The notes under the pieces are model-generated. The model was not told the origin of the DNA, made no database searches, and saw only the letters and a program-made list of their open reading frames with translations. A DNA stretch of 33,172 nucleotides, taken from positions 1-33,172 of the forward strand of contig JAJONN010000036.1 of the NCBI GenBank assembly GCA_021323455.1. Direction: 5' to 3'. A program made the position numbers and the translations under genes. This document shows positions 2,810-33,172 of the stretch, in pieces (the first letter of the stretch is position 1; each line of letters opens with the position of its first letter). The stretch is from Alphaproteobacteria bacterium. GTDB taxonomy: Bacteria > Pseudomonadota > Alphaproteobacteria > Paracaedibacterales > VGCI01.

Positions 2810-3437
2810 TCTTTCTCATCACATTCGCCAGGAGCTCTCACACGCCCCCCAATCCATGGCGCACGTTTTGCTTGTTTTCTTAAGTCTTATTGTGGCTTTT
2901 GGGGTGCTATCCTCAAACCAACCTACCCTATGGGAAGCTTTTTTACCCACCCTGTTGATGGGGTTGAGTTATGGCATCATGAGCTTGAGCCTTGCCCAGC
3001 TATTTCGGGAAGATTGGGAAGATGGCACATTGGAATGGTGGGTGAGTGAAAAAAAATCCTTGGAAATTTATGTTTTGGTAAAAATTGTAGCTCATTGGCT
3101 TCGTCTGGGCATTCCCTTAACAGGAATTGTTGGGGTGATTTCTGGGTTGACCTCTCTTCCCCTTCTCATCGGTGCTGCGGTGACAACTCTGGCCTTAACG
3201 CTGTTGGGGGCAATTGGCAGCGCCTTATGTTTGAATACAAAGGCGAATGCCTCGATCTTGTTGCCCCTCTTGACCCTGCCCCTCGGCATTCCCATGATGC
3301 TGGTCAGTATGGCAGCCATTACCGATCCAATAGCAAACCTTTCTTCTTATTTAACACTCCAGGGGGGGCTGTTTCTCATGGCCTGTGCACTGTCCTTGAT
3401 TGCTTGTCCATTTGCCTTAAGGTTAGCTTTGCGATAA
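2802..3437 (+). CDS. ccmB: Heme exporter permease CcmB
   Basis: Inner-membrane partner of CcmA in cytochrome c biogenesis. The 211 residues form about six hydrophobic segments (for example around residues 20-36, 44-60, 100-125, 128-150, 155-180 and 190-208), close to the usual length of about 220. The N-terminal pattern of an amphipathic head followed by a first membrane span, and the acidic loop LFREDWEDGTLEWW after the second span, are typical of CcmB. It overlaps the ccmA 3' end in a different frame, so the pair is surely co-transcribed. The identification rests on hydropathy, the DGTLE motif and the gene pair. Confidence 0.9.
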   Translation: MVSLSHHIRQELSHAPQSMAHVLLVFLSLIVAFGVLSSNQPTLWEAFLPTLLMGLSYGIMSLSLAQLFREDWEDGTLEWWVSEKKSLEIYVLVKIVAHWLRLGIPLTGIVGVISGLTSLPLLIGAAVTTLALTLLGAIGSALCLNTKANASILLPLLTLPLGIPMMLVSMAAITDPIANLSSYLTLQGGLFLMACALSLIACPFALRLALR

Positions 3438-3492
3438 AATAGGGAAGGTTCCTGAGACGTTGAAATCGTAGATTATCATTGAGGAGGTTACC

Positions 3493-3810
3493 ATGAGCTG
3501 GAACATACACCCTGGAGAAATTTTATTGGAAGAATTTATGAAGCCATTGGCTTTGAATTCAAATCAACTGGCGCATTTACTTGATGTTCCGGCTCCTCGC
3601 ATTAATGATATCATTTTGCAAAAAAGGGGTATTTCTGCTGATACGGCCTTAAGATTGGCACATTACTTCAGAACAACGGTAAAATTTTGGATGAATTTAC
3701 AAGATTCCTATGAAATTCGGAAAATTAGCAGAGATAAGAGGAAAAGCATTGAAAGCTTGGCTGTTAGCGCTTTTCCATGCGTTGGCAGCGCAACTGTGAC
3801 TGAATGGTGA
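3493..3810 (+). CDS. higA: HigA-family addiction-module antidote (orphan)
   Basis: XRE-type helix-turn-helix protein of the HigA/VapI antidote family. The 105 residues begin with HPGEILLEEFMKPLALNSNQLA, the classic family opening, followed by a recognition-helix region (LLDVPAPRINDIILQKRGIS) and ALRLAHYFRTTVKFWMNLQ. A strong Shine-Dalgarno sequence (GAGGAGG) precedes the ATG. HigA normally sits downstream of, or overlaps, the HigB (RelE-like) toxin. Here the upstream neighbour is ccmB, 55 nt away, and the downstream neighbour is convergent parE, so no toxin is present. The C-terminal tail (SAFPCVGSATVTEW) looks unlike the usual family end. It may act as a solitary repressor or be a remnant. 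Confidence 0.85.
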   Translation: MSWNIHPGEILLEEFMKPLALNSNQLAHLLDVPAPRINDIILQKRGISADTALRLAHYFRTTVKFWMNLQDSYEIRKISRDKRKSIESLAVSAFPCVGSATVTEW

Positions 3811-3832
3811 GGAGATGTTGTTTTCTTCTCAC
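3807..3832. terminator. Hairpin between convergent higA and parE ends
   Basis: GTGAGGAGA (3807-3815) can pair with TCTTCTCAC (3824-3832) over 9 positions with one G-T pair and an 8-nt loop. It covers the stop codons of both convergent genes. There is no clean T-run on either side, so an intrinsic terminator role is only possible. Confidence 0.3.
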
Positions 3833-4806
3833 ACATCCACATCCTGAATATGGGGGGCGTTTTCTTGAATGAAGGTATAGCGGGCTTCCGGATTTTTCCC
3901 CATCAAGCGATCAACAAATTGGGAAATGTCCTCATTATCCTTGATAAACACGCGCAATAACTTGCGTTTGTCCCGATGCATAGTCGTGTCCCGCAGTTGG
4001 GCGGGGAGCATTTCGCCCAATCCTTTAAAGCGCCCAATATCTACATTTTTGGCGCCCTTGAAGTGAACTTTGAGGAGATGGTCTTTTTCCTGATCATCCT
4101 GGGCATACACAGATTTTGACCCTTGTGTGAGACGATAAAGGGGAGGTTGAGCCAGGTAAATATGACCCGCATCAATAAGGCTGCGCATTTCCTGGAAAAA
4201 AAACGTTAATAACAAGGATGCGATATGGGCGCCATCCACGTCCGCATCGGTCATAATAACCACCTTGCCATAGCGAAGCTTAGAGGGGTCGCACAGCTTT
4301 CCCATGCCACATCCGAGCGCAAGACCCAAATCCCGAATTTCCTGGTTGGCATGCAGCTTTTCGATCGTGGCATTGGCAACATTCAAAATCTTGCCTCGCA
4401 ACGGAAGGACGGCTTGTGTGGCGCGGTCCCGGGCTTGCTTGGCAGATCCCCCCGCTGAATCCCCTTCCACGAGGAAGATTTCGCTATTGGCCGCGATATT
4501 TGAGGTGCAATCGGCTAATTTCCCTGGCAAACGAAGCTTCCGAGTTGCGCTCGCTCGGGCCACTTCCTTGGCTTGTCGGCGTTTCAAGCGATCTTCCGCC
4601 CGGCCAATGACATGGTCAAGAAGCTGGGTTGCTGCCTGGGGGTGCGCTCCTAACCAGTGGTCAAAGTGATCCTTCACTGTGTTTTCAACCAAACGGGCGG
4701 CTTCAACACTGACAAGCTTTTCTTTTGTTTGGCCTTGAAATTGCGGCTGATTAATGAAACAGGACAAGATCATACAGGCGCTACCGCTGACGTCTTCACT
4801 GGTCAA
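3829..4806 (-). pseudogene. parE: Topoisomerase IV subunit B, C-terminal fragment (TOPRIM part)
   Basis: This frame carries the TOPRIM half of ParE: LVEGDSAGGSAKQ with the catalytic Glu, MTDADVDGAHI with the metal-binding Asp triplet, RFKGLGEM, and the ParE-type C-terminus ARYTFIQENAPHIQ. The listed ATG at 4806 is internal. The same frame continues upstream without a stop to about 4970 and encodes the transducer-domain block CNTIPTPQGGTHENGFRQAL, so the true fragment is about 364 residues. It lies in a different frame from the N-terminal fragment. If this fragment is translated at all, it would need internal initiation. The ParE assignment over GyrB is based on the ending and on the HPKFPELSALEVI block in the partner fragment. 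Confidence 0.85.
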
Positions 4807-4859
4807 TTGTCCTACCCGACGGTTCCCAATACGGTCCCCATAATCTTTTAAGGCGCGGG

Positions 4860-5702
4860 TTAACGCTTGGCGGAAGCCATTTTCATGGGTGCCGCCTTGG
4901 GGCGTTGGAATGGTGTTACAAAACGAAGAAACCCATCCGGCTTCGTCGCTCCTAGCTGGTCGTTTAAATAGTCAACAAGGCCAGCAGGATAATGAAGGCA
5001 AGCCACAGGGGGCGTTTTATCATTACTTTGGAGCAGGGAGGGGTCACAATGCCAGTTAATTTCGACACCTTTAAAGAGGTAGGCTTTTGCGCGCGCCAAT
5101 TGATAAAGCGTAGCAGGGCGGAAATGAAGGGTATTGCCAAAAATTTCGGGGTCTGGATGGAAGCGGATAGTTGTGCCGCGGCGGCTGGTAGCGCCTTCTT
5201 GCAAAATCAGAGCAGAGGTGGGTTTGCCTCTTGAATAAGTTTGACGCCAGAGATTTCGGGAGCGGGCAACCTCAACTTCCAGAGCGTCAGACAAGGCGTT
5301 CACAACCGAAACGCCAACGCCGTGAAGGCCACCGGCTGTCGCATAAACAGCATTATTGAATTTCCCACCGGAGTGGAGGGTGGTCAAGATAACTTCAAGG
5401 GCGGACAATTCAGGAAATTTGGGGTGCGGGTCTGTTGGAATACCCCGGCCATTGTCTTTAATGCACACAATATCGCCGACTTCCAGGCGCATTTCAATGC
5501 GGCTCGCATGGCCAGAAACGGCTTCATCCATGGCATTGTCCAAGACTTCTGCAACCAGATGATGGAGGGCTTTCTCATCGGTACCCCCTATATACATGCC
5601 AGGACGTTTGCGAACAGGCTCCAACCCTTCCAAGACTTCAATATCCTTGGCTGAGTACTCAACATTGGGGAGAGAGGCGCTTTGACGAAAGAGGTCAGAC
5701 AT
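4860..5702 (-). pseudogene. parE: Topoisomerase IV subunit B, N-terminal fragment (ATPase part)
   Basis: The ATP-binding GHKL half of ParE: KRPGMYIGGTDEKALHHL, DNAMDE with the catalytic Glu, DNGRGIP and GGLHGVGVSVVNALSDA. The protein is correct to about residue 263 (GLVDYLNDQLG), then leaves the family pattern and ends in a frameshifted tail (VTPFQRPKAAPMKMASAKR). The normal continuation, DEAGWVSSFCNTIPT, is present in another frame. About 30-40 residues that usually lie between these points, including a VEWA-type strand of the transducer domain, are absent, so this looks like a deletion and not a single-base slip. There is no Shine-Dalgarno sequence before the ATG; a short repeat cluster abuts it. 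If real, the cell has lost a normal ParE from this locus. An assembly error is the main alternative. Confidence 0.85.
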
Positions 5703-5844: not shown

Positions 5845-6207
5845 TCACGCCGCTGCCAATGCTTTTTGGGCTTGATCAACCAGGGATTTAAAAGCATCGG
5901 GCTGGTTAACAGCCAAATCCGCCATAACCTTTCGGTCAATGGTAATCCCTGCTTTCAATAATCCATTGATAAAGCGGGAATAAGGCAAACCGTTTGCACG
6001 GGCGGCTGCATTGATACGCTGGATCCATAAGGCGCGGAAATCACGCTTTTTGTTGCGACGGTCGCGATAGGCATATTGCCAGGACTTTTCCAAGCGTTGG
6101 ATCGCAATACGGAAACACTTACTGGAACGTCCCCGAAATCCCTTGGATAATTTTAAAACTTTCTTGTGACGGGCGTGGGTTGTAACGCCTCTTTTTACGC
6201 GTGCCAT
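5845..6207 (-). CDS. rplT: 50S ribosomal protein L20
   Basis: Large-subunit assembly protein that binds 23S rRNA. The 120 residues match the family length and sequence: [20 protein letters not shown] at the start, [13 protein letters not shown], and [21 protein letters not shown] in the middle. A strong AAGGAGG site precedes the ATG, and the gene follows rpmI by 12 nt. In many bacteria infC precedes rpmI and pheS follows rplT. Here neither is present and the next gene downstream is parE. L20 often represses its own operon by binding leader RNA; I cannot show such a site here. Confidence 0.97.
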
Positions 6208-6219
6208 AGTCGGGCCTCC

Positions 6220-6417
6220 TTACATGTGTAAATAATAGCTGAGAACTTTTTTTGCGTCCGCTTCATGCATGATTGTCATGCCGCGCGCATTCCGCAACAT
6301 TTTATTGCTCCGCTTTCTCATACCATGGCGTTTACCCGCCTGACCCATTTTGACTTTACCGCTGCCAGTAACGCGGAACCGTTTCTTGGCACTGCTTTTT
6401 GTTTTTAACTTGGGCAT
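6220..6417 (-). CDS. rpmI: 50S ribosomal protein L35
   Basis: Small basic large-subunit protein of 65 residues, beginning [21 protein letters not shown] and containing [18 protein letters not shown], both hallmarks of L35. It is the first gene of a two-gene operon with rplT. The upstream region carries a plausible sigma70 promoter and a leader of roughly 90 nt, long enough for ribosomal-protein feedback control. The Shine-Dalgarno sequence is weak (GAGAG). Confidence 0.97.
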
Positions 6418-9559: not shown

Positions 9560-10138
9560 ATGGTAGTAAATAAAAATAAACCCTACATTATCTTGATCAC
9601 AGGCGCTTCGGGCAGTGGAAAAACGGCAGCTTTAAAAACTCTTGAGCAAAAGCTTTCCTCTGATTTAGCGTCGATCAATTATTTTGATGATATGGGGATA
9701 CCCAGCGCTGATGAGATGGTTGCAAAGTACGGTTCTGGCGAAAAATGGCAGGAATGGGCAATACACGCTTGGATTGACAAGCTTGTTCAAATAGCAGATA
9801 AAAAGATTGCCATTTTAGAAGGTTCCTTTCACCCCGAATTTGCCATATCTCGCTTGCAAGAGTTGGGCAGAACGAATTATTTACTGATCTGCCTTCATGC
9901 TACCAAAGCCATACGAGAAGAAAGGCTGACTTTATACCGAAAACAACCAGAACTTGCCATACAAGATATGGAAAATTATGCCCAAGTTTTGAAAAAGAAG
10001 ACAGTTGATTTAGGAGGTATGGTCGTTGATTCAACAAATAGAACTATTGGCGAAGTTGAGCAAGAAATATCCAATTTAATTTTTAAATATGATATGGAAT
10101 CTATTCTTATTCATTCAAAAGATGGAAAGACAAGATAA
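9560..10138 (+). CDS. P-loop NTPase / predicted small-molecule kinase
   Basis: A 192-residue soluble protein with an N-terminal Walker A loop, GASGSGKT (about residues 15-22), in the arrangement of nucleoside-kinase-like P-loop proteins. A hydrophobic beta-strand ending in Glu, KKIAILEG, may serve as Walker B. HATKAIREERLTLYRK provides the Arg-rich lid-like helix common in such kinases. The substrate cannot be deduced. There is no clear Shine-Dalgarno sequence before the ATG. It is convergent with the hydrolase gene and has no evident operon partner. Confidence 0.65.
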   Translation: MVVNKNKPYIILITGASGSGKTAALKTLEQKLSSDLASINYFDDMGIPSADEMVAKYGSGEKWQEWAIHAWIDKLVQIADKKIAILEGSFHPEFAISRLQELGRTNYLLICLHATKAIREERLTLYRKQPELAIQDMENYAQVLKKKTVDLGGMVVDSTNRTIGEVEQEISNLIFKYDMESILIHSKDGKTR

Positions 10139-10203
10139 TTCAAATTATGGTTTTACCCCTTTTTTCTCAGGTTCTTTCCGCCTACACAGGGTCAGGTAGT
10201 TTT

Positions 10204-10971: not shown

Positions 10972-11141
10972 TTCTTTTTGTTACCTCTCCGCTTTAAGAA
11001 CAAAAGCACCTTCTAGCTTATAAAGTCTATCCTTCTTGAAAAAGCATGCCAACAGGATTTCGTCAATTTTTTCTATTTTTTAAAGAAATTAACGATTTGT
11101 TTCCATTTTTTACCATAAATTAAAAAGTGAAAGGAAAATCC

Positions 11142-13148
11142 ATGGGCTTCAGTATATATGCTCTTTCGGTCGCTGTGTTTGCGTTTTGCCTTTTGTTCCT
11201 GCCTCACTTAAACAGGGACAATCGGTGGACACGCCTGGCTATCATTGGGGTTGTATCTATTTTTTGGGCACGCTACATGGTGTGGCGTTTGTTTGATACG
11301 GTCCTCCCTGTCCCAATGCTGACAGGTCTTGGACTTTGGATCTGGTTCTGTTTCTTCATTGAGCTTCTTGTTTCTGTGGAAAGCCTGATTTTCTATATTA
11401 CCTTGATGCGCCATTCAGACCGCAAAGCCCAGGCGGACAAGTACGAAAAAGCCTTACGTGCCTTGCCGGCGGAAGAGTTGCCGACGATTGATGTCTTTCT
11501 GCCGACCTATAATGAAGGCATAGAAGTCATTGAGCGGTCTATCCTTGGATGTTTGCACTTGGATTGGCCAAGAGACAAATTAAAAGTTTGGGTTTTGGAT
11601 GACGGCAAGCGGGATTGGGTGCAAGATTTTTGTGAAGAAGTTGGCGCTGGTTATATTCGCCGCAAGGAATGGGTTCACGCAAAAGCAGGCAATTTAAACC
11701 ATGCCTTTGAAGTCACTAGTGGTGATTTTATTGCCGTCTTTGATGCGGACTTTGTTCCTTTCCGGAATTTCCTCTACCGTACCGTTGGCTTTTTTATTGA
11801 CCCTAAAGTTGCTATTTTACAAACTCCTCAACATTTCTTTAATAAAGACTATGTTCAGTCTAATTTACATTTACATGACTCAGCTCCAGATGACCAACGC
11901 TTGTTTTTTGACGTCATGATGCCAGCGCGAGATGGATGGGATGCGGCTTTCTGGTGTGGCTCATGTAGCTTGACGCGGCGTGTGGCCATGCGTGAAGCGG
12001 GAGGTGTGCCGACTCGCTCCATCACAGAAGACTTGACAACAACTCTTGCCTTGTTACGCCACGGGTATATTACACGCTATCTTAACGAAAAATTAAGTCA
12101 TGGCCTCGCGCCAGAGTCCTTGCCAAGCTTGCTCACCCAACGCAAGCGGTGGTGCCGGGGGACAATTCAAACCATGTTTATGAAAGACGGTCCTGTAGGA
12201 CCTAATCTCAGATTTATCCACAGGCTCTTATTTTTTCCATGGCACTGGCTAATTAGCCCTTTTACACGTTTGTTCAGCTTTGTTGTCCCCATCGTGTTTT
12301 TGTGGACAGGCTTTCCGGCACTGCTCATTACCCACTATTCAGAGCTGATTTATTATCACTTTCCGGCGTATCTGGCGAACCTGTTTGTAACTCTTTGGTT
12401 GGCGCCACGGCACTATATCCCCTTGCTGAGCAGTTCCGTTGCTTCTTTGGAGGCCGTTCAGGTTATGCCAACAGTCATCAATAGTTTGGTTACGCCTTTC
12501 CGTAAAGAATTTGGCGTCACGCCGAAAGGACACATGGGACGCCCAAGTGGGCAACGCCGTATCCATCAATTCTCTTTTTGGATGAGTTTAACGTTACTTC
12601 TGTTAACCGCTGGGGGAATGCTGATCAATATCATTCCTGAAAATAGCCCGGTTTCTGAAGGTGGGTTTTTTCCAGTTGCTGCTATCTGGGCGACGATGAA
12701 CGTTTTCATGTTGATTGTCATGACGATGATCAGCGTTGAGCATCCACGCCCCCGAACAGATGAGCGTTTCCAGGTGAATGAAGAGGGGAGCCTGATTTTA
12801 AACGGTGAGACAATTTCTGTTCATGTTCATGATATTTCCCTTGGTGGCGCTCGGTTAAGCCTGGATGATTTGAAGCGTCATACTGTATCAGCCCACCAGC
12901 AGGTTACCCTTGAGATTCCCAATCTAGGGCCTGTAGCGTCAGAAGTGGTCCGAACAGATGAAGGTATCATCCATGTGCATTTTAAAGACCTTCAAGGTAA
13001 GTCCCGCCATGCGTTGATCCAGCATCTGTATACGGGTAGATATCACAATGCCAGCGCATTGAAGTACAATAACTTCTTGAAGCAGCTTTTTCACCGCATC
13101 TTTCATGACCATTCCCATCTTTATGTGCCGTCGAAGAAAGCGGAATGA
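11142..13148 (+). CDS. Cellulose-synthase-like processive GT2 with C-terminal PilZ domain
   Basis: BcsA-type inner-membrane glycosyltransferase that polymerises and extrudes a polysaccharide. After three or four N-terminal membrane segments, the GT2 domain shows VFLPTYNEG, DDGKRDW (about 155), the metal-binding DAD (about 200), the catalytic TED (about 294) and QRKRWCRG (about 332), which is the Q-x-x-R-W motif of processive synthases. More membrane spans follow. A PilZ domain has RTDER (about 538) and DISLGG (about 564), the two cyclic-di-GMP contacts. The track starts at GTG 11127. I prefer ATG 11142, because AAGGA sits six nucleotides before it. No bcsB, bcsC or bcsZ is adjacent, so the polymer could be cellulose or another beta-glucan. 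Confidence 0.88.
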   Translation: MGFSIYALSVAVFAFCLLFLPHLNRDNRWTRLAIIGVVSIFWARYMVWRLFDTVLPVPMLTGLGLWIWFCFFIELLVSVESLIFYITLMRHSDRKAQADKYEKALRALPAEELPTIDVFLPTYNEGIEVIERSILGCLHLDWPRDKLKVWVLDDGKRDWVQDFCEEVGAGYIRRKEWVHAKAGNLNHAFEVTSGDFIAVFDADFVPFRNFLYRTVGFFIDPKVAILQTPQHFFNKDYVQSNLHLHDSAPDDQRLFFDVMMPARDGWDAAFWCGSCSLTRRVAMREAGGVPTRSITEDLTTTLALLRHGYITRYLNEKLSHGLAPESLPSLLTQRKRWCRGTIQTMFMKDGPVGPNLRFIHRLLFFPWHWLISPFTRLFSFVVPIVFLWTGFPALLITHYSELIYYHFPAYLANLFVTLWLAPRHYIPLLSSSVASLEAVQVMPTVINSLVTPFRKEFGVTPKGHMGRPSGQRRIHQFSFWMSLTLLLLTAGGMLINIIPENSPVSEGGFFPVAAIWATMNVFMLIVMTMISVEHPRPRTDERFQVNEEGSLILNGETISVHVHDISLGGARLSLDDLKRHTVSAHQQVTLEIPNLGPVASEVVRTDEGIIHVHFKDLQGKSRHALIQHLYTGRYHNASALKYNNFLKQLFHRIFHDHSHLYVPSKKAE

Positions 13149-14032: not shown

Positions 14033-15302
14033 ATGCTGGATACCCCTAAAGAAGATACCGACCCGAAGCAACAAGCTGAACCCTGTGTCATTTTCCGTGA
14101 TGAAGCGCTTGCCCATATTTCTACGCCAAATGATGTCAATAAAATTATCTCAGTTGTTGGGTCGGGGACATGGATTTTAATCGCCATGTTCGTCGTCATT
14201 GCGGGCATTGCTCTTGGATGGTTATTTTATGGTAGCATCCCGATTACACTTCAAGGACAAGGCATTCTTATCCCAAAAGGAGGAATCTTTAAGACCGTCA
14301 CCTCCCCAGAGGGTTTCAACATCATCGAAGGTTTACCTGTTCAAACAGGGCAAATTGTTGAAAAAGATCAGATTGTTGCTCTTTTAGATAACCCAGAATT
14401 GACAAAAACAATCGCGGTGCGTACGGAATATGTTGCAGACTTAAAAAAGAAGCGTGGGGATCTTGCGACGGATGCTGCTAAAAGTATCAAAGAAAAAACA
14501 GAGCATTATGAAAAACAAAAGAAAATCATTGAAGACAGCCTTAAAACAAAGGTTGACTATCAAAAACATCTTGAAACAAACCTTGAAAAGCAACGCATAC
14601 TCTTGGGAAAAGGTTATGCAAAGCAACAAAACGTCCTGGATATTGAAAGTCAGCTTAACGCTTTAAAAGAAGAAGATTTACGCAGTAAAGAAAAACTTGT
14701 CCAGCTTCAGAAAGACCTGCTGGTTGATCAGGAGAACTGGACGCAGAGGGAACGAGAAATTGTCCTCAAGCTTACGGATGAAGAGCGGGCCCTTGAGGAT
14801 TTAAAAACGCGCCAAGAAACAACAAAAACCATTAAAAGCCCCTTAAGGGGCAAAGTTATTGGCATCCACCATAAAATCAGAGACAGTGTTGCGGCAAACG
14901 AACCTTTGGTTACCTTGAGCCAAGGAGACGAAACTCAGCTTGATGCTTTAATTTACCTGAATCCCCTGGAAGGAAAAGAAGTCAAGGTTGGTATGGTCGT
15001 TTATATGATCCCAACCCATCTTGAGAAAGAGCATGTCGGTTATATCGAGGGAGAAGTCATTGAGGTATCTCCTTATCCAGAAACAGTTCGCAGCCTTATG
15101 TCAACCTTACAAAACGACAAGCCCGCCGATCAGCGCGCGTGTCAGCATCAAAAAGGATCACCAAAAAAACAAAAAATCTCCCATAGATTTTTTAAAGCTT
15201 TCCCCAGGGACATGGGTTTATGGGCGCGTGATTGTAGAGCGTCGATCTCCATTTGCCATCATCATTCCGGCAATCAAAAAAATGCTTGAGGTCATGCCAT
15301 GA
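14033..15302 (+). CDS. HlyD-type membrane-fusion adaptor of an NHLP-like peptide exporter (frameshifted near the C-terminus)
   Basis: Periplasmic adaptor of an ABC export system, resembling the NHLP bacteriocin-system secretion protein family. The N-terminus VIFRDEALAHISTPNDVNKI precedes one membrane span (about 43-63). A lipoyl-like segment (GLPVQTGQIVEKDQIVALL), a long coiled coil (about 130-260) and the second lipoyl half (IKSPLRGKVIGIHHK) follow. The plain ORF ends at 15289 with an atypical tail. The family-like ending (LSPGTWVYGRVIVERRS, then IIIPAIKKML) lies in the +1 frame and stops at 15300-15302, giving an ATGA overlap with the next gene. The frame switch falls near 15105-15130. GGAAGAGG supports the start. 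Confidence 0.82.
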
Positions 15303-17755
15303 TGCAGCGATTTAGAGTTTTCGTGCATTTCTTGGTATGCGCTCTTCTCTTGGCCATTTCTAAAAGGAAGGCGCTCTTATATGATTATTTCTTAAAAGAA
15401 TACCCAACGGATTGGAAGGCCCGCGGGCTGTCACGTGTCGCCAGATGCCTTGCGTACTCATGGTGCCTTGCCGTAGCACAACATGTTAGGCGTTCCGTTA
15501 GGATAAAGGGCATAACAGCTTGGCAATTTCTGTTGATGAAAGGTTATAATTGGTACCGGGCGATAAAAGCCTTTATGAAACTGGATATCAATCGAAAAAA
15601 AATCCACGAAACGCCAACGTTTTTGCAAATGGAAGCAACAGAATGTGGATCCATCTGTTTTTCAATTATTTTGGCTTATTATCGCCATGAATTAACACCT
15701 GAGGAAGCCCGTGCTGCTTGTGGTGTATCAAGGGATGGCAGCAAAGCTAGTCATATCATCCGTGCCGCACGACAATATAATATGTCTGCCAAAGGGTACA
15801 GTGTGCAGGATATCTCTGCTTTAGAGTCATGCCCGTTGCCGGCTATTATTCATTGGAACTTTGACCATTTTGTCGTCCTTGAAGGCCATAGAGGGAAGTA
15901 TTACTACATTAATGATCCGGCAACGGGCCGGCGGCGCGTCGAATTTGAAGAGTTTAACAAGAACTTTACAGGGATCGTGCTGGTTCTCACCCCAAATGAG
16001 GGCTTTATCCAAAAAAAACAGGAAAATGCCTTAGTAAAGTTTTTGTCCTTGTCTCTCCAAAGAGGCGTCAGCGGCATCCTGGCGGCTTTTTTCCTTAGCA
16101 TCTTGCAGGTCCTCCCCAGTCTCATGGTGGCATTTTCCAGCAAGATTTTTATTGATTATATCCTGGTTAAAAGCCTGTCTTATTGGCTTATTCCGTTAAC
16201 GCTCATATTGGCAGGGTTTGTGGTTTTGCAATCCCTTTTGATGTCATTACACCAGCGGCTACTTGTACGCTTAAGCATGCATTTTAAGTTAAGCTTGGAA
16301 AGCTTGATTGTACACAAGCTCTTTCATTTGCCTCTTCGTTTCTTTGACCAACGGTTTAGTGGTGATATTTTATACCGCCTTTCTGCAGCGGAAGATCTTT
16401 CCAATCTTCTGTCGCTTGAGATTATGGGGGCCTTGTCGAATGTTTTTGGGATTGTCATTTTTACGGTTGTTTTAAGCCAACTCTCGTTTCCCATGTTTTT
16501 TATTATGCTGATTTTCATTGGATTGCGTATCCTTGTTTTTTACCTATCCCGCAAAAGAATAGCGGAAACGAATATCCACTATCAGCAGCAATTCGGTAGG
16601 GTGGCTGGTATTGCTATGAATGGACTGGACATGATCGATACACTGAAGGCCAACAACCTGGAACATGTTTTTTTTAAAAACTGGGCGGCTAATCACGATA
16701 CGTTGTTAAACAAGCATCAAGAAGTAGCGCTCGTTGACCAACGGACCAACATCTTGTTGTTGAGCCTTGCGGGCCTTATGACTGTTGCCTTGTTATATCG
16801 TGGTACTTATCTGGTGATGGAGGAGTCAATTACGATTGGTACCTTAATGGCATTTATGGTTCTTGCTAATTACCTGGATGGCCCCTTAATGACCCTCTTG
16901 GGTTTTTCCAGCAAAATAGAAAAAATAAAGGGATCCATTAACCGATTTAACGATATTTTGTGTCACGAAAACCAGGAGCCCGAAGAGATCGGGATAGATG
17001 AAAATAGCCCGAACAGAAAAGAAATACCCCCTTTAACCCAAGAAATTATCTTGAAAGACGTGGGCTTTGGGTATGCCCCTCTTGATCCGCCGATCTTTCA
17101 TAACCTGAATCTAGTTATTCCACAAGGAAAAACAGTTGCCTTTGTTGGGATGAGTGGCTCTGGAAAATCCACCATTTCTAAAATTATCTGTGGCTTGTAC
17201 CCCATTTCATCTGGTGAGATCTTTTGGGATGGCATTCCGGTTCAAGACACCAGTGTGGCACAAAGAAATAAGCGCATTTCTCTTGTTGACCAAGATATTT
17301 ACTTATTTGACGGGACAGTAAGGGATAATTTAACCTCTTGGGAAAAAAATATTAATGATGAAATATTGATGGATGCCTTAAAACAGGTTGGTTTGTATGA
17401 TGAGTTATTACCGAGAGGGCTTTTAAATAGCCGCGTAGGAGAAAATGGTGCCAATTTAAGCGGCGGGCAACGCCAGCGCTTGGAGATAGCACGCGCCGTG
17501 CTTAGGAAAGCAGATGTATTGATTTTGGATGAAGCCACAAGCTCCCTTGATGTGCCGAATGAAACGCACATATTTGATTCCCTGGGCCAACTGGACATAA
17601 CCACAGTCATTATTGCCCATCGGCTCTCAACAATTCAAAAGTCAGACATCATTTATGTCATTAACGATGGAAAAGTTTCCCAATGCGGAAAGCATGCGGA
17701 TCTTGCTCAACAACCGGGCATTTATAAAGACTTGATGGAATTGGAATCAGCATGA
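15299..17755 (+). CDS. C39-peptidase ABC transporter of an NHLP-like export system, with N-terminal extension
   Basis: Bifunctional inner-membrane transporter that cleaves the leader of a peptide substrate and exports it. Residues of about 105-235 form the C39 papain-like peptidase: LQMEATECGSIC (Gln and Cys), DHFVVLEG (His) and YYINDPATG (Asp), so it looks catalytically intact. Six membrane spans follow, then the ATPase: Walker A GMSGSGKST (about 617), LSGGQRQRLEIARA, LILDEATSSLD and IIAHRLSTI. Members normally begin just before the peptidase. Here about 92 extra residues precede it, with one hydrophobic segment and a basic, Trp/Tyr-rich stretch. GAGG before ATG 15299 and the ATGA coupling support the long start; the internal ATG 15575 has no ribosome site. 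Confidence 0.9.
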   Translation: MMQRFRVFVHFLVCALLLAISKRKALLYDYFLKEYPTDWKARGLSRVARCLAYSWCLAVAQHVRRSVRIKGITAWQFLLMKGYNWYRAIKAFMKLDINRKKIHETPTFLQMEATECGSICFSIILAYYRHELTPEEARAACGVSRDGSKASHIIRAARQYNMSAKGYSVQDISALESCPLPAIIHWNFDHFVVLEGHRGKYYYINDPATGRRRVEFEEFNKNFTGIVLVLTPNEGFIQKKQENALVKFLSLSLQRGVSGILAAFFLSILQVLPSLMVAFSSKIFIDYILVKSLSYWLIPLTLILAGFVVLQSLLMSLHQRLLVRLSMHFKLSLESLIVHKLFHLPLRFFDQRFSGDILYRLSAAEDLSNLLSLEIMGALSNVFGIVIFTVVLSQLSFPMFFIMLIFIGLRILVFYLSRKRIAETNIHYQQQFGRVAGIAMNGLDMIDTLKANNLEHVFFKNWAANHDTLLNKHQEVALVDQRTNILLLSLAGLMTVALLYRGTYLVMEESITIGTLMAFMVLANYLDGPLMTLLGFSSKIEKIKGSINRFNDILCHENQEPEEIGIDENSPNRKEIPPLTQEIILKDVGFGYAPLDPPIFHNLNLVIPQGKTVAFVGMSGSGKSTISKIICGLYPISSGEIFWDGIPVQDTSVAQRNKRISLVDQDIYLFDGTVRDNLTSWEKNINDEILMDALKQVGLYDELLPRGLLNSRVGENGANLSGGQRQRLEIARAVLRKADVLILDEATSSLDVPNETHIFDSLGQLDITTVIIAHRLSTIQKSDIIYVINDGKVSQCGKHADLAQQPGIYKDLMELESA

Positions 17756-17794
17756 AAGGGGCCATGTTATGAGCCTTATAAAGAGGTAAGCGTC

Positions 17795-19906
17795 ATGAAA
17801 GAGCAACATAGTTTCCCTTTTGATGATCCGTTGTTTAAAGTGGCGCCTACGCTGAAAAAAGCACTGTTTCCAACCTTAAGCTCTTTTAATCACCAGCAGG
17901 CATTGCAAGCTTGTTTTGAAGCGCTTTCATTTGTGAACAATACGCATAAAAAACCAATTTTAGATCCGCTTGCCAGAACCGTTGAAGAGGTTGTGAGCCG
18001 TATGGCTTCAAGTTGTGACTTAATTGCGAGGGAGATTCATATCCACAATATTAATGTTGCTACTGAAACAAACCCTGCCATTGTTTTTGAGGTCGCAACA
18101 TCCATGCCAGGTTTGATCTATTATAAAGGTGAAACTGCCTACCTTTATGATCCATTAACAGGTACGAATAAAAAGGCTGATGCGTCTCTGCTCAAGAGCT
18201 ACCAAATGATGGGGTTTACCTTATATAAGAAGTGGCCGCAAGACTCAAAAACAATTACTCAAATGGCGAAAATGGCCTACCAAGAAACCCGCAAAGATCT
18301 GAAGCTTTTTATGATCCTTCAAGGTTGTGTTGGGCTATTGATGCTTTTACAACCTTTTCTGACAGGCGTTATTTTTGATGACGTTGTCAAGTTGCGTCAA
18401 TATAATTTGATTGACCAGGTATTCTTAGGGCTTGTGGCAGCAACGGTTGGAGCGATGGTGTTTAAGGTCGTGCAAAACTTTGCGATGATCCGGTTCCAGG
18501 CGAAAAGCAGTGTTTTTTTAGAATCGGCCTTATGGAATCGGTTGCTCTCTTTTCATCTTCGCTTTTTTAAACTGTTTCGGTTAGGGGACCTCCACGACCG
18601 TTTGACAGCTGTTGATCAACTTCAAAAGGAATTGACAACATCATCCATGAATGCCCTTTCCCAAGGGTTTTTCTCAGTCATTATTTTGCTGTTCATTTCA
18701 TGTTACCTGCCCCTCCTGGGTCTCATTATTTTTTTTGTGACCCTTCTGTTTGGCGCGGTGAGCGTTCTTCTCATCCGACGGATGATCCAGTATCACCGTT
18801 CTGTTACACAGACAAATGCACGGCTGGTAAGCTTCCTGTTTGAAGCCATTCGCAGTGTTGTTAAGGTTAAAACATCCAATACCCAAAAGCACATTTTTCA
18901 AAGGTGGCTGAATATGGAATTCAGCAAGATGAGTCCCTTTATTGGTGCCCAATATTTACTTGTTTACTACCATATTATAGAGTTTGTTTTCCCGATTGTT
19001 ATTGTGGCGTCTCTGTATTTTCTGATGGTTGGCAGTAACCCTTTGGGGCCAACAACTCCCGCCTTGTCGATTGGGAAATTTATCAGCGTACAAATGGCGT
19101 TGGGGCAATATTTTGCAGCTCTTATCGGCATGGTTGGGGTTATTGATCGTTTATTGCACCTTATTCCCCATATCGAACGGGTGCAGCCCATTTTGAAAGA
19201 AAGAGCGGAGCAGGATGGGGAGCAAAAAATTCAGACACTCTTTAAAGGAAAAATTACTTTTCAAAATGTGAGCTTTCAGTATAAGTCCACAGGGCCGCTT
19301 GTGCTTGACAATGTTAGCTTTACCATTAATGCTGGAGAATGGGTGGCCATTGTGGGCCCCTCTGGTGCAGGAAAATCCACGCTCATTAAGTTAATTCTAG
19401 GGCTAGAAACCTGTGATAAAGGTACAATCCTGTTAGACGACATCCCGTTACAGCAGCTTGATCTACCAACGGCCCGGCGTCAAATTGCAACCGTACTTCA
19501 GCACACGCACCTGTTGCCAGGTAGTATTTTTGATAACTTGCATGCGTCCAATCCAAATTTAACGGAAGAAGAAATGCTGTCTCTCTTGCGCCTTGTTGCG
19601 ATTCACGATGACATTGTCAACATGCCCATGGGGTTAAATACCGTCATTATGGGGGATGGTCGCACCTTTTCAATGGGACAGCGCCAACGGCTGGTTCTGG
19701 CGCGATGCCTGGCAAAGCCCTTATCTTTTATTCTCCTAGACGAGGCGACAAGCGCTTTGGATAATTTAAGCCAAGAAATTATTTTGAATACAATCAAACA
19801 AATCCCTATAACGCGCGTTACGGTCGCCCACCGTCTCTCAACCATCCGGCGCGCTGACCGCGTGATTGTTATGGAGAAGGGCAGGGTGGTCGAGCAGGGC
19901 GCATAA
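17795..19906 (+). CDS. Second ABC transporter (permease-ATPase) of the NHLP-like export system
   Basis: Partner ABC protein without a peptidase, matching the NHLP export permease/ATPase family. The first 165 or so residues form the family's N-terminal domain, ending in LYDPLTGTNKKADASLL and GFTLYKKWP. Six membrane segments follow (about 165-430). The ATPase has Walker A GPSGAGKST (about 520), a Walker B DEATSALD and TVAHRLSTI. The ABC signature reads FSMGQ where LSGGQ is usual, so one composite ATP site may be weakened, as in asymmetric ABC pairs. The start is supported by GAGGTAA. It lies 39 nt after the C39 gene and is certainly in its operon. Confidence 0.88.
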   Translation: MKEQHSFPFDDPLFKVAPTLKKALFPTLSSFNHQQALQACFEALSFVNNTHKKPILDPLARTVEEVVSRMASSCDLIAREIHIHNINVATETNPAIVFEVATSMPGLIYYKGETAYLYDPLTGTNKKADASLLKSYQMMGFTLYKKWPQDSKTITQMAKMAYQETRKDLKLFMILQGCVGLLMLLQPFLTGVIFDDVVKLRQYNLIDQVFLGLVAATVGAMVFKVVQNFAMIRFQAKSSVFLESALWNRLLSFHLRFFKLFRLGDLHDRLTAVDQLQKELTTSSMNALSQGFFSVIILLFISCYLPLLGLIIFFVTLLFGAVSVLLIRRMIQYHRSVTQTNARLVSFLFEAIRSVVKVKTSNTQKHIFQRWLNMEFSKMSPFIGAQYLLVYYHIIEFVFPIVIVASLYFLMVGSNPLGPTTPALSIGKFISVQMALGQYFAALIGMVGVIDRLLHLIPHIERVQPILKERAEQDGEQKIQTLFKGKITFQNVSFQYKSTGPLVLDNVSFTINAGEWVAIVGPSGAGKSTLIKLILGLETCDKGTILLDDIPLQQLDLPTARRQIATVLQHTHLLPGSIFDNLHASNPNLTEEEMLSLLRLVAIHDDIVNMPMGLNTVIMGDGRTFSMGQRQRLVLARCLAKPLSFILLDEATSALDNLSQEIILNTIKQIPITRVTVAHRLSTIRRADRVIVMEKGRVVEQGA

Positions 19907-28718: not shown

Positions 28719-31700
28719 TTAATGATGAGTAATAATAAGGTGGGCGCTGAGGGGGTCATTTATGGTAAAGGCTGTATCATGCAGCGTTAAGGAGCCATAA
28801 GTATTGACCTGGTTGCTCACGGTCGATTCAAACGTTAAGATGGTATTTGTAACCCCGCCCGTGGTGGTGGTTGAAACGGCGATACCGCCTGTTGCTGTTG
28901 CGGCGCTGTTTTGCAATAACTGGAAATTCTGGGCGCTGCTGTTGGAGTCGCTCAATCCCAAGTTTGTAAACAAGTCGCTGCTCATGTGAAGGACGAGGTT
29001 GCCACTCATATCGATGATGGAAGACCCTGAGGCAGATACATGGGCAATGTCAACGTGTTGCGCAAGATCATCAATACTGTCGCCTTGCAGGGTCACGTTA
29101 TAGGTTGGGGTATTGTCGTAAGATTCGATGCGCATCGTCCCGTTCGCCGTTATGGCAAGGTCAGACCCGAACGCTGACAGGGAAGTTGCCTGCACACCCG
29201 TGAGCGTGATGGAACCATAGCTGGCGCCATTCGTGCCGTTAAACCCAATCACCGTGTCAGTGCCGTTAGCGGCGACGCCCACCGTCCCGTTATGGGCTGC
29301 GAGATAAGCATCCACCATGGAAGGTGTAATCGTGGTGGCTCCCCCGTTGGCGTTAGAGATATCGTCATACAAGGCTTTCGACAATTGGAGATTTAAGAGG
29401 TTGGAAGCGCCGGACGCCCCAAAATTGTTGATCACCGTATGGCCTTCACCAACGATGCTGCCATCTGTTGCGGAAAAGAGGTTAATGTTGAATATATTAC
29501 TCCCGCTCGAACTGGCATTCATAACACCATTGCCCAACAGGATCGTATTACCATACACGTTTGCCGCATTCCCCGCTCCTGGCAGATCGGATAGTAGGAC
29601 AAAGCCGTTACCTGTAGAAACATTCACATCATACTTGTCAAAATTCGTATGGGTTAAATCATCGACATCTCCGTAGAAAGCGGTAATGCCGCCTGTAGCA
29701 GTTGACACGCTATTCCTGAATACAATGCTGTTGAACGCTATCGAGCTGGTACCCGGTTGAGAGACGTTGTTTAAGGCTTGCTCATTATTTTCAATAACGA
29801 TTGTTGCAATACCCGTATAAAGGGAGGTGTCCACATTCCCACCCACCAGGGTGTTGGCCCCAAAATTGAAAGTATTGAATTGTATCGCGCTGTTGCCTTC
29901 ATAGACCGAAAGTCCCGGCGTACCGGAGAGGGCTGTAATAAAATCAGAGGATTGGATCAGGTTTCCATTGGAACTGGCGGGGCTATTGATGGTGAGCGAG
30001 AGGGTTTGCGCATTTCCATAAAGGTCAAGGTCCCCAGAACCGCCAGAATTGCCTGTCAAGGTGTTTCCGGCCAAGCTGCGGATGACATCATTATTGGCTA
30101 TAGACACCGTTTGCGTCTTGCCAGAGGTCCCTGATGCATAAAATCCGTCTGTTGCTGTAAGAGATATATGTTGGGCAATGCCAAAGGCGTCCCCGCTGGA
30201 AAAAATGGTGTTCCCCATAGTTCTTACGGTGTTTGCTACAACTCTTTCTATATCGAATATTTCTACACCGAATATCAGTAAGCTGTCACCATAAACATTA
30301 ACGCCCCCCGTCGCATTCAAAGATATATTTTGGGCGTCGCCATACGTAGAAGAGGCAGCGTTTGAAAAAATCCATGTTTCTGAAAAAGTAACATTATTAC
30401 CCGCCACATCTATAAAACCAGCTGCCACAGATGTCGTGCCCTGGGCGCTAAAAGTAAGGTTTTCTATGTCTCCCGTGACCGTTCCTGTTCCCGTTGTTGC
30501 ATTGTTATAAATCACCTTATCACCATAAGAGAAGTTCCCAGTCCCAATGTTGTGGTTATGGGTGGCAACCCGGCTTAAATCCGCTCCCCCTCCTATAATC
30601 TCGTTACCATGGCCAATAAAGATGCCAGCGGCGGTTGATCCTGTTATTGTTCCTGTGGCCTGGTCCGTAATAGGCGCATCCAACGCAATAACATGAATGG
30701 GGGTGGTAAGGTTTGCCGTGGCGGAAGTATAAGGGTCATTGGCGGTTACGGAATTGACCATGGCATCAATAATGCCTGTATTGGTTCCATAGTTTATTGT
30801 TCCTGTAGAATCTTGTGTGATACCCGTTCCATCAAGAGAAAAAGACAGGCTGGTAGGGCCATCATAATTAAAGTATTGGGCAAGCGTGGTGTAGGTGCCT
30901 GCCACGCCGGGAATAATAATGTTGACAGTCGGTTGGAGATTGGTGGCAACAGCCGTTAGGGGGTCAGCAATGCTAACCGTGATACTGGCCTCAAGGGTAT
31001 TTCTCAAGTCCTGGAAATTTGGGTAGGCATCTGTTCCAAACCCCTCAAGGACAATGCTGCCGCCACCAGGAAAGATGAGGACGGCTAAGGAGGGTAGTTG
31101 GGTAATACCCAAGCGGGCCAAGAACCCTGCCGACGTTAAGACGCTGCCCCCTGCTAATTGGTTGTAAAGGGGATAAGCCAGCTTAAAGTTCAGGCGGTCT
31201 GAGGCTTCAAAGTCCTGAATGGTGTCGAATCCTTGCATGACGGCTTGCGGTGTAGAGTCGTTGGTCCCCACAATGGTAAAGTTGTAAGTGTCTGCTCCGC
31301 CACCGCCTTTATACGTATTGTTGCCCCAAGTGATTTGGTTACCATTTGTATCTTGTATCGTGTTGCCAGAAACCGTCACGCCATTATAAAAACCTCCCGA
31401 TCCGTAACTTGTTGGATTGTTACTATTGCCAAACTCCTGAAGGTGGCCGAAGAAGGAATCTGGACCGGTGCCTCCGTAGATGGTCGTATTCCCAAATCTG
31501 AAAATATTACCGCTGGGAGCGGCGGCCCCACCGATTAAGGTCATCTGGAGAGCCTCAAAATTTCCATAAAGATTGCCTGACGCTTCGATAAAGTTGCCAG
31601 CCATGTTGATTATTTCGTTGCTGGTGTTGAGGATGCCATCAAATGTCCCGTCATTAGTCATCATAATTGTCTGGCCGTTGCCATAAACGGTGTCAGGTTG

Positions 31701-33172
31701 TCCACTGCCATCATAGATGAGCTTGGAAGCATAATTAAGCACCCCTACGCCTAGGCTACGGGCGGGATTAGAGGTAGATGTAAAATTGAGTTGTGTAGTG
31801 CCGCCTGTAATGGTGGCGTTGCCGTGGCCAATAAAGACAAAAGACCTAAGCCCATAAATATCGCCGCTAACGCCGGCCCCTTGCTGATCGCCGGGATTGT
31901 CAATGAGAAGCCCGTTGAGACCAAGGATGCGCACCGGGTTTGCAGCGCTGGTGTTGCTGAGGACATTCGTTGTATAGGCGTCACGCGCGATCACGGTATT
32001 AAGGGTGGTATTGATGATCCCGGTGTTGCTTCCGAAAGACACCGTTCCATTCTGGTTTAAGTTAAGATTGCCTATTAGATTCCCACCACTCAATACGGTG
32101 CCCAAAACATGGTTTGTATTGAAGACCGTATTAAAAGTATCCAGGTTGGTGGTATTGCCAAAGACAAGGATAGGAGATACAGGGGAGGTAATCGCTGTAA
32201 TGGGGTCGGCCAGGCTGACCGTAACGCTGTCTCTAAGGGCATTTGTTAAATCCTGTAGCACCGGATAAGCATTTGTGCCCCATCCTTTTAGGATAATGCT
32301 GCCCCCGCCAGGAAAGCCCAGTTCTGCTGTGGTGGCTGTTTGAGTAATGGACAGGCTGGCCAAAAACGCTGCTGGATCCAGGGGGAGGCCCCCTGCCAAT
32401 TGGTTATAGAGTGAGTAAACAAGCTTAAAATTCAGGTGGTCTGATACGCCGAAGTTCTCGATGGCGTCAAAACCTTGCATGGTAGACTTGCCAAACATAT
32501 CTGGCACAATGGTAAAATGATACGTGTTGGCACCGGTTCCTCCGATATAGGTATCATTGCCCCAGGTAATAACATTGTTATTGCCAGACTTAATGGAGAG
32601 TACTGTCTCTTGGGTGGTTGGGCTTGGGCTAGACATTACGGTAACGCCGCTATAAAATCCCATGGTTCCGTAACTTCCAGGAGCATTGCTGTTGCCAAAA
32701 ATGTCGGCGTCGCCATAAAAATCATTTGGTCCGACGCCTCCCATCAGCACGTCACCCCCAAAGGTGAGTATATTGCCCGTAACCTCGTTAACGCCTGCGC
32801 CTGGCCCCGTCCCTGTGCTTGTGCCTGTCATGGTGAGGGTGGCAATGTTGCCGTAAATCGTCCCCGTCGTATTGATAATGTTTTTGGAAAAGGTCAGGGT
32901 TTGGCCAGAAGTTCCGGCACCGCCCAAAGTCCCGTCATTAAAAAAGCTGACGTTCTGTACATCCCCATAAACCGTATGGCTGGCAACGCCGGGGATATAG
33001 CTTGTGTCATGAATGAGGTTGGAACCATAAACCAGGCCCAGGGAAGGCGTGGCTGCAACATAATTAAGATCTGGGGTGCCGCCAATAATTGTATTGCCAG
33101 GGGTATTTGTTGAAAAGGCTTTCGCTTTGCTAACATCCGCTTGGTTGAAACCTCCGATAACAAGGAGGTCGG
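28719..33172 (-). CDS. Giant RTX-like repeat protein, N-terminus beyond the right edge
   Basis: The track starts this ORF at an internal TTG (32927), but the frame has no stop up to the right edge, so at least 1484 residues belong to one protein. It is Gly/Asn/Thr-rich and nearly free of Cys. A motif of the form [hydrophobic]-Y-G-[N/D]-x3-[L/I] recurs at least a dozen times (VYGDVQNV, IYGNIATL, VYGNGQTI, LYGNFEAL). Two modules read GG-x-GA-[N/D]-TY-x-F, then a FD-x-I-x-[N/D]-F...D-x-LNFK block, the usual end of RTX calcium-binding arrays. A repeat of about 415 residues occurs two to three times. It is likely an extracellular or surface protein, and type I secretion is plausible. No export partner adjoins it in the window. 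Confidence 0.8.
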   Translation of the reverse strand, partial: DLLVIGGFNQADVSKAKAFSTNTPGNTIIGGTPDLNYVAATPSLGLVYGSNLIHDTSYIPGVASHTVYGDVQNVSFFNDGTLGGAGTSGQTLTFSKNIINTTGTIYGNIATLTMTGTSTGTGPGAGVNEVTGNILTFGGDVLMGGVGPNDFYGDADIFGNSNAPGSYGTMGFYSGVTVMSSPSPTTQETVLSIKSGNNNVITWGNDTYIGGTGANTYHFTIVPDMFGKSTMQGFDAIENFGVSDHLNFKLVYSLYNQLAGGLPLDPAAFLASLSITQTATTAELGFPGGGSIILKGWGTNAYPVLQDLTNALRDSVTVSLADPITAITSPVSPILVFGNTTNLDTFNTVFNTNHVLGTVLSGGNLIGNLNLNQNGTVSFGSNTGIINTTLNTVIARDAYTTNVLSNTSAANPVRILGLNGLLIDNPGDQQGAGVSGDIYGLRSFVFIGHGNATITGGTTQLNFTSTSNPARSLGVGVLNYASKLIYDGSGQPDTVYGNGQTIMMTNDGTFDGILNTSNEIINMAGNFIEASGNLYGNFEALQMTLIGGAAAPSGNIFRFGNTTIYGGTGPDSFFGHLQEFGNSNNPTSYGSGGFYNGVTVSGNTIQDTNGNQITWGNNTYKGGGGADTYNFTIVGTNDSTPQAVMQGFDTIQDFEASDRLNFKLAYPLYNQLAGGSVLTSAGFLARLGITQLPSLAVLIFPGGGSIVLEGFGTDAYPNFQDLRNTLEASITVSIADPLTAVATNLQPTVNIIIPGVAGTYTTLAQYFNYDGPTSLSFSLDGTGITQDSTGTINYGTNTGIIDAMVNSVTANDPYTSATANLTTPIHVIALDAPITDQATGTITGSTAAGIFIGHGNEIIGGGADLSRVATHNHNIGTGNFSYGDKVIYNNATTGTGTVTGDIENLTFSAQGTTSVAAGFIDVAGNNVTFSETWIFSNAASSTYGDAQNISLNATGGVNVYGDSLLIFGVEIFDIERVVANTVRTMGNTIFSSGDAFGIAQHISLTATDGFYASGTSGKTQTVSIANNDVIRSLAGNTLTGNSGGSGDLDLYGNAQTLSLTINSPASSNGNLIQSSDFITALSGTPGLSVYEGNSAIQFNTFNFGANTLVGGNVDTSLYTGIATIVIENNEQALNNVSQPGTSSIAFNSIVFRNSVSTATGGITAFYGDVDDLTHTNFDKYDVNVSTGNGFVLLSDLPGAGNAANVYGNTILLGNGVMNASSSGSNIFNINLFSATDGSIVGEGHTVINNFGASGASNLLNLQLSKALYDDISNANGGATTITPSMVDAYLAAHNGTVGVAANGTDTVIGFNGTNGASYGSITLTGVQATSLSAFGSDLAITANGTMRIESYDNTPTYNVTLQGDSIDDLAQHVDIAHVSASGSSIIDMSGNLVLHMSSDLFTNLGLSDSNSSAQNFQLLQNSAATATGGIAVSTTTTGGVTNTILTFESTVSNQVNTYGSLTLHDTAFTINDPLSAHLIITHH
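30950..32545 (-). repeat. Two copies of a long internal module in the giant protein
   Basis: Encoded stretches at about 32545-32190 and 31310-30950 are closely similar: GG-x-GA-[N/D]-TYxFTIV, LNFKLxYxLYNQLAGG, FPGGGSI[I/V]L and ADP[I/L]TA[I/V] occur in the same order. They are offset by about 1240 bp, which defines the long repeat. A third, degenerate copy lies near 29440-29170. Confidence 0.7.

Follow-up and report, generated by a model that had tools for sequence, protein, structure and literature searches.

The window analysed here, 33,172 nucleotides in length, is contig C78 of an alphaproteobacterial assembly that totals 1.73 Mb in 104 contigs and is 84% complete. This genome is labeled G000 below, and its cassette-bearing relatives are labeled G001, G003 and G013. 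Three adjacent genes on the plus strand of the window, at 14033-15289, 15299-17755 and 17795-19906, encode an HlyD-like adaptor (membrane fusion protein), an ABC transporter with a C39 peptidase domain and an intact triad (ABC1), and a companion permease/ATPase (ABC2), as an earlier sequence-only reading of this DNA had proposed. Upstream of the cassette, at 11127-13148 on the plus strand, lies a gene for a PilZ-domain GT2 polysaccharide synthase, which matches PilZ (PF07238) and scores 416 bits with TIGR03030, below the cut-off of 699. Profile matches in the window also agreed with the neighbors named in that reading, a PilZ-regulated synthase and a HIT protein; dapF lies on the right. The region is syntenic in G001, where the order PilZ GT2-HlyD-ABC1-ABC2 is found at 73-76% identity and the synthase is kept as a 76% identical neighbor. 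Near the contig end, at 28719-32927 on the minus strand, there is a long repetitive protein of 1402 amino acids that had no match in a Pfam search; it was considered as RTX cargo and dropped, as it had neither a Pfam match nor a link to the cassette.

In Haft et al. 2010 (PMC2887384), where the three-gene system was defined, its cargo is of the NHLP and Nif11 kinds. When the three proteins were run against TIGR03794, TIGR03796 and TIGR03797, each of these models was the best for its gene, and only the adaptor exceeded its cut-off (169 vs 156.2 bits, with the match covering residues 29-364 only). ABC1 scored 723 bits with TIGR03796, vs 332 for the next family, and did not reach the cut-off of 853.3, while ABC2 scored 515 bits with TIGR03797, vs 307 for the next family, and did not reach the cut-off of 709.4. 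The ABC1 proteins of G001, G003 and G013 score 700-725 bits, also below the TIGR03796 cut-off, and since these relatives score likewise, the low ABC scores characterize the clade. The ABC1 proteins of the window, G001, G003 (contig C20) and G013 form one clade on a long branch, with a support of 100/100, in a tree that also includes other NHLM-type ABC1 proteins. The cassette is therefore like NHLM/NHLP cassettes in the unbroken succession of adaptor, C39 ABC and companion ABC genes and in its best-scoring families for all three genes, and unlike them in that ABC1 and ABC2 fall below the cut-offs across the clade. NHLP/NHLM stands as the nearest kind, and the earlier assignment to that type needs qualifying in that both ABC proteins are under the curated cut-offs and the cargo, as described below, is neither NHLP nor Nif11. 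That an RTX/HlyB-type or colicin V-type exporter has been misnamed as NHLM is hardly credible: ABC1 does resemble HlyB in a general way (315 bits), as it does the peptide cleavage/export family (332 bits), but TIGR01846, TIGR03375 and TIGR01193 give at most 332 bits vs 723 for TIGR03796, both ABC proteins score far higher on the NHLM models than on RTX/HlyB or colicin V models, and the layout of two ABC genes plus an adaptor is that of NHLM.

ABC1 combines C39 peptidase, permease and ATPase domains (PF03412, PF00664 and PF00005) and has a predicted role in leader cleavage and peptide export. Its closest solved structures are PCAT (PCAT1, 4ry2; E value 1.6e-91) and ComA (8hf4), with which it shares the C39-permease-ATPase architecture. 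To our knowledge, PCAT1 and ComA act without a companion ABC2 or an HlyD-type adaptor of this kind. The C39 domain, encoded at 15614-16000, has the complete set of catalytic residues (Q110, C116, H190 and D206) by alignment and motif check, in agreement with the intact triad noted previously. It is preceded by an N-terminal extension (15299-15613) that has no family match, with Pfam searched as well, and whose length in alignments differs among the relatives from about 70 to 160 amino acids. The hlyD stop and the ABC1 start overlap as ATGA in the window, G001 and G003; the start of ABC1 is therefore placed at 15299, and this start in turn supports the variable extension as real. Two C39-like domains were seen in the 84%-complete genome, that of ABC1 and one on contig C52, and only the former keeps its catalytic residues, which makes ABC1 the only visible candidate processor. 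The C52 domain, judging by its residues, is without the catalytic cysteine and histidine and may be like that of dock-only exporters. Elsewhere, an NHLM-like ABC1 in genome G054 (contig C26; locus L083, 11060-13342, minus strand) has a serine at the position of the C39 catalytic cysteine (SDSGAACL). The N-terminal region of ABC2 aligns to the second half of a C39 domain, lacks the catalytic residues, and is matched by TIGR03796 from profile position 71, and the ABC2 signature motif is FSMGQ in place of LSGGQ. This degenerate C39-like region and the altered signature would suit ABC2 as the helper half of a heterodimer.

No double-glycine-leader ORF was found beside the cassette in the window, and so the absence of a visible cargo gene, which the sequence-only reading had remarked on, holds for the flanks. 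Precursors with NHLP or Nif11 leaders were likewise not found in the 84%-complete genome at E values of 1 or lower with TIGR03793 or PF07862, and TIGR01847 had no match in G000 at E values up to 10, while two precursors of G003 pass the TIGR01847 cut-off. As a control of the method, a cassette in genome G091 is adjoined by two Nif11-leader precursors that score over the TIGR03798 cut-off. It is very improbable that this is a standard NHLM system and that its precursor, of NHLP or Nif11 type, is encoded in the 16% of the genome that the assembly lacks. Incomplete recovery (84%), the Nif11 precursors beside the cassette in G091 and the distant precursors known for NHLM/NHLP systems (PMC2887384) would all permit it, but neither type of leader was found in the part of the genome at hand, and in relatives of the same cassette clade genes with short double-glycine leaders directly adjoin the cassette.

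Comparison of the gene neighborhoods in G001, G003 and G013 showed that the cargo adjoins the cassette in all three. In G001, five small tandem genes follow ABC2 (locus L095, G001:C5:121000-140900, about 3400-5400), with leaders such as MLTLNDTMLEEVSGG and cores rich in Asn, Gln and Gly. Three of these five genes are clearly paralogous, and one leader ends in GS, not GG. Two genes with short GG leaders precede hlyD in G013. One such gene precedes hlyD in the cassette on contig C27 of G003, two follow ABC2 in the cassette on contig C20, and several more are scattered in that genome. The consensus of the short leader in the clade is MxxLNDxxLxxIxGG. The G003 pair on C20 is paralogous (locus L080, about 5850-6310, minus strand) and has cores of only five residues, GIKGF and GLKGW. 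Each of these tiny precursors is followed by a similar untranslated stretch and a hairpin-like inverted repeat. Read-through of TGA in the two tiny genes was rejected, as the frames of the similar downstream sequences are not conserved. A class-wide search for tiny precursors gave 0 matches in a sample without a positive genome and hence shows nothing. On contig C25 of G003, the leader look-alike VVAGASAVEYGLLASLIV was dropped as cargo, since it is Flp-type prepilin-like by eye; a small ORF of that contig (locus L134, about 10000-10150, minus strand) has a double-glycine-like leader, MVELNEKELDKVVAG, joined to the Flp-pilin-like sequence ASAVEYGLLASLIV.

A leader profile (A1) was built from ten leaders of G001, G003 and G013, with no sequence from G000, and applied to 39 genomes in the order, 35 of which lack the cassette. 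Because its leaders came from the three other genomes with a cassette, only G000 is an independent test of it. A scan of G000 for small ORFs with such a leader found two. The first, on contig C28, has the leader MNTMTILTDADLEKICGG and a core of 52 residues (E value 9.5e-4), and the second, on contig C67, has the leader MKGMTILDDMVLEQIVGG and a core of 46 residues (E value 0.0033). Both are short ORFs that start at the leader behind good ribosome-binding sites (AAGGAGG and GGGAGG), and both sit alone among unrelated genes. None of the 35 cassette-free genomes had a match at E values of 0.01 or lower; the best there (0.027) lay inside a frame of 424 amino acids. A second profile that included the new leaders found no further genes in G000. 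All-against-all comparison gave no significant similarity between the cores of the two precursors and those of the relatives, and a shared core homology suspected by eye (LNTASG/LDTKTG) was not supported by it. The link between the cassette and the orphan genes in G000 rests on a leader match of 15-18 residues and on co-occurrence, not on adjacency. The leader motif is short and the cores are unlike those of the relatives, as would be expected if the two genes were chance look-alikes and the real cargo unseen, but two matches in one genome against none at this threshold in 35 cassette-free genomes, each of them a short ORF that begins at the leader behind a ribosome-binding site, make such a coincidence quite unlikely. 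Of the two possibilities suggested for the cargo, a distant location and a new class of leader, the first is thus supported, and the leader is not new, as short double-glycine leaders have long been known from Gram-negatives. An ordinary split locus, which the sequence-only reading had set against its own proposal, largely describes what was found, with the difference that the precursors are not standard NHLP or Nif11 ones.

The adaptor gene contains a frameshift that the sequence-only reading did not notice. Alignment with G001 and G003 shows that the window hlyD lacks 26 nucleotides at about 15117/15118, an out-of-frame deletion, and the frame is lost after about codon 362. The remainder of the adaptor is encoded out of frame at 15021-15302 on the plus strand, with a conserved C-terminus (SPPISARVSIKK...SPGTWVYGRVIVERRSPFAIIIP...) and the TGA stop that overlaps the ABC1 start. 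This is either recent damage in the strain or wrong assembly. A GyrB/ParE-type gene in the same contig (3829-5702, minus strand) likewise changes frame partway, its N-terminal part lying at 4860-5702 and its C-terminal part running on in another frame, which suggests assembly faults in the contig or real damage; a viable cell would not be expected to have a broken GyrB/ParE without a second copy to stand in for it. An assembly fault in hlyD is plausible because of this second broken gene. The adaptor of the G013 cassette (locus L082, contig C208, about 3130-4416, minus strand) has an in-frame TGA stop too. In G001 hlyD is intact. We also considered whether the cassette is decaying, with the cargo gene beside ABC2 lost, hlyD a pseudogene and no export now taking place in this strain. 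The deletion in hlyD would fit, as would the gap of 112 bp after ABC2, which holds no cargo gene where G001 has its five. Decay is nevertheless possible rather than probable: ABC1 and ABC2 are open with all catalytic motifs kept, intact orphan precursors remain in the genome, the broken gyrB/parE points to faults of assembly, and any damage to hlyD must be recent since the frameshifted part is still well conserved.

Given the genes and leaders observed and the fact that they occur together, we consider it probable, at roughly three chances in four, that the locus is a type I export cassette of three genes, NHLM-like in kind, and that its cargo is a set of small peptides with a short double-glycine leader whose genes lie apart from it. 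Orphan genes like those on C28 and C67 would make precursors of 64-70 amino acids, whose leader (MTILxDxxLExIxGG) would be bound by the C39 domain of ABC1 and cut after the GG. The core peptide would then cross the inner membrane through the ABC1 and ABC2 pair, and the HlyD adaptor would bridge to an outer-membrane channel of the TolC kind. The steps of cleavage, pairing and export are predicted here from the families, PCAT1 and ComA being the nearest solved structures. The exported products could act as bacteriocins or as signals. The tiny five-residue cores lean towards signals, though only in the relative G003. It is unlikely that the clade as a whole exports very small signal peptides, as an alphaproteobacterial form of peptide signaling through an NHLM-like exporter in which the window's own genome sends two unrelated orphan peptides.

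Precursors may be far from the exporter genes in NHLM/NHLP systems, as the candidate precursors are here, and the exporter occurs more widely than its NHLP cargo and could point the way to new families of peptides (PMC2887384). In NHLP or Nif11 leaders the GG comes at around residue 83 or 70 (PMC2887384), whereas the leader of the clade's cargo is neither NHLP nor Nif11 and is short, with 15-18 residues to the GG. It resembles instead the short double-glycine peptides (Dirix et al. 2004; TIGR01847) in leader length, hydrophobic spacing, the GG end and a C39 exporter as partner. For Gram-negative bacteria, PMC3140520 quotes from Dirix et al. 2004 the consensus M(R/K)ELX3E(I/L)X2(I/V)XG(G/A); the clade consensus is its own and G000 is without a TIGR01847 match. 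Also unlike the Gram-negative short double-glycine systems, the exporter here has the two-ABC layout of NHLM. A literature search among open-licence papers found none on the NHLM-like exporter clade of the window. The case joins this clade with cargo that is scattered and short in its leader, a modest variation on an export system already known. It provides a worked example of scattered orphan cargo with a different, short leader that is missed when annotating by adjacency, and the leader profile together with the two precursors makes the pairing of exporter and cargo directly testable.
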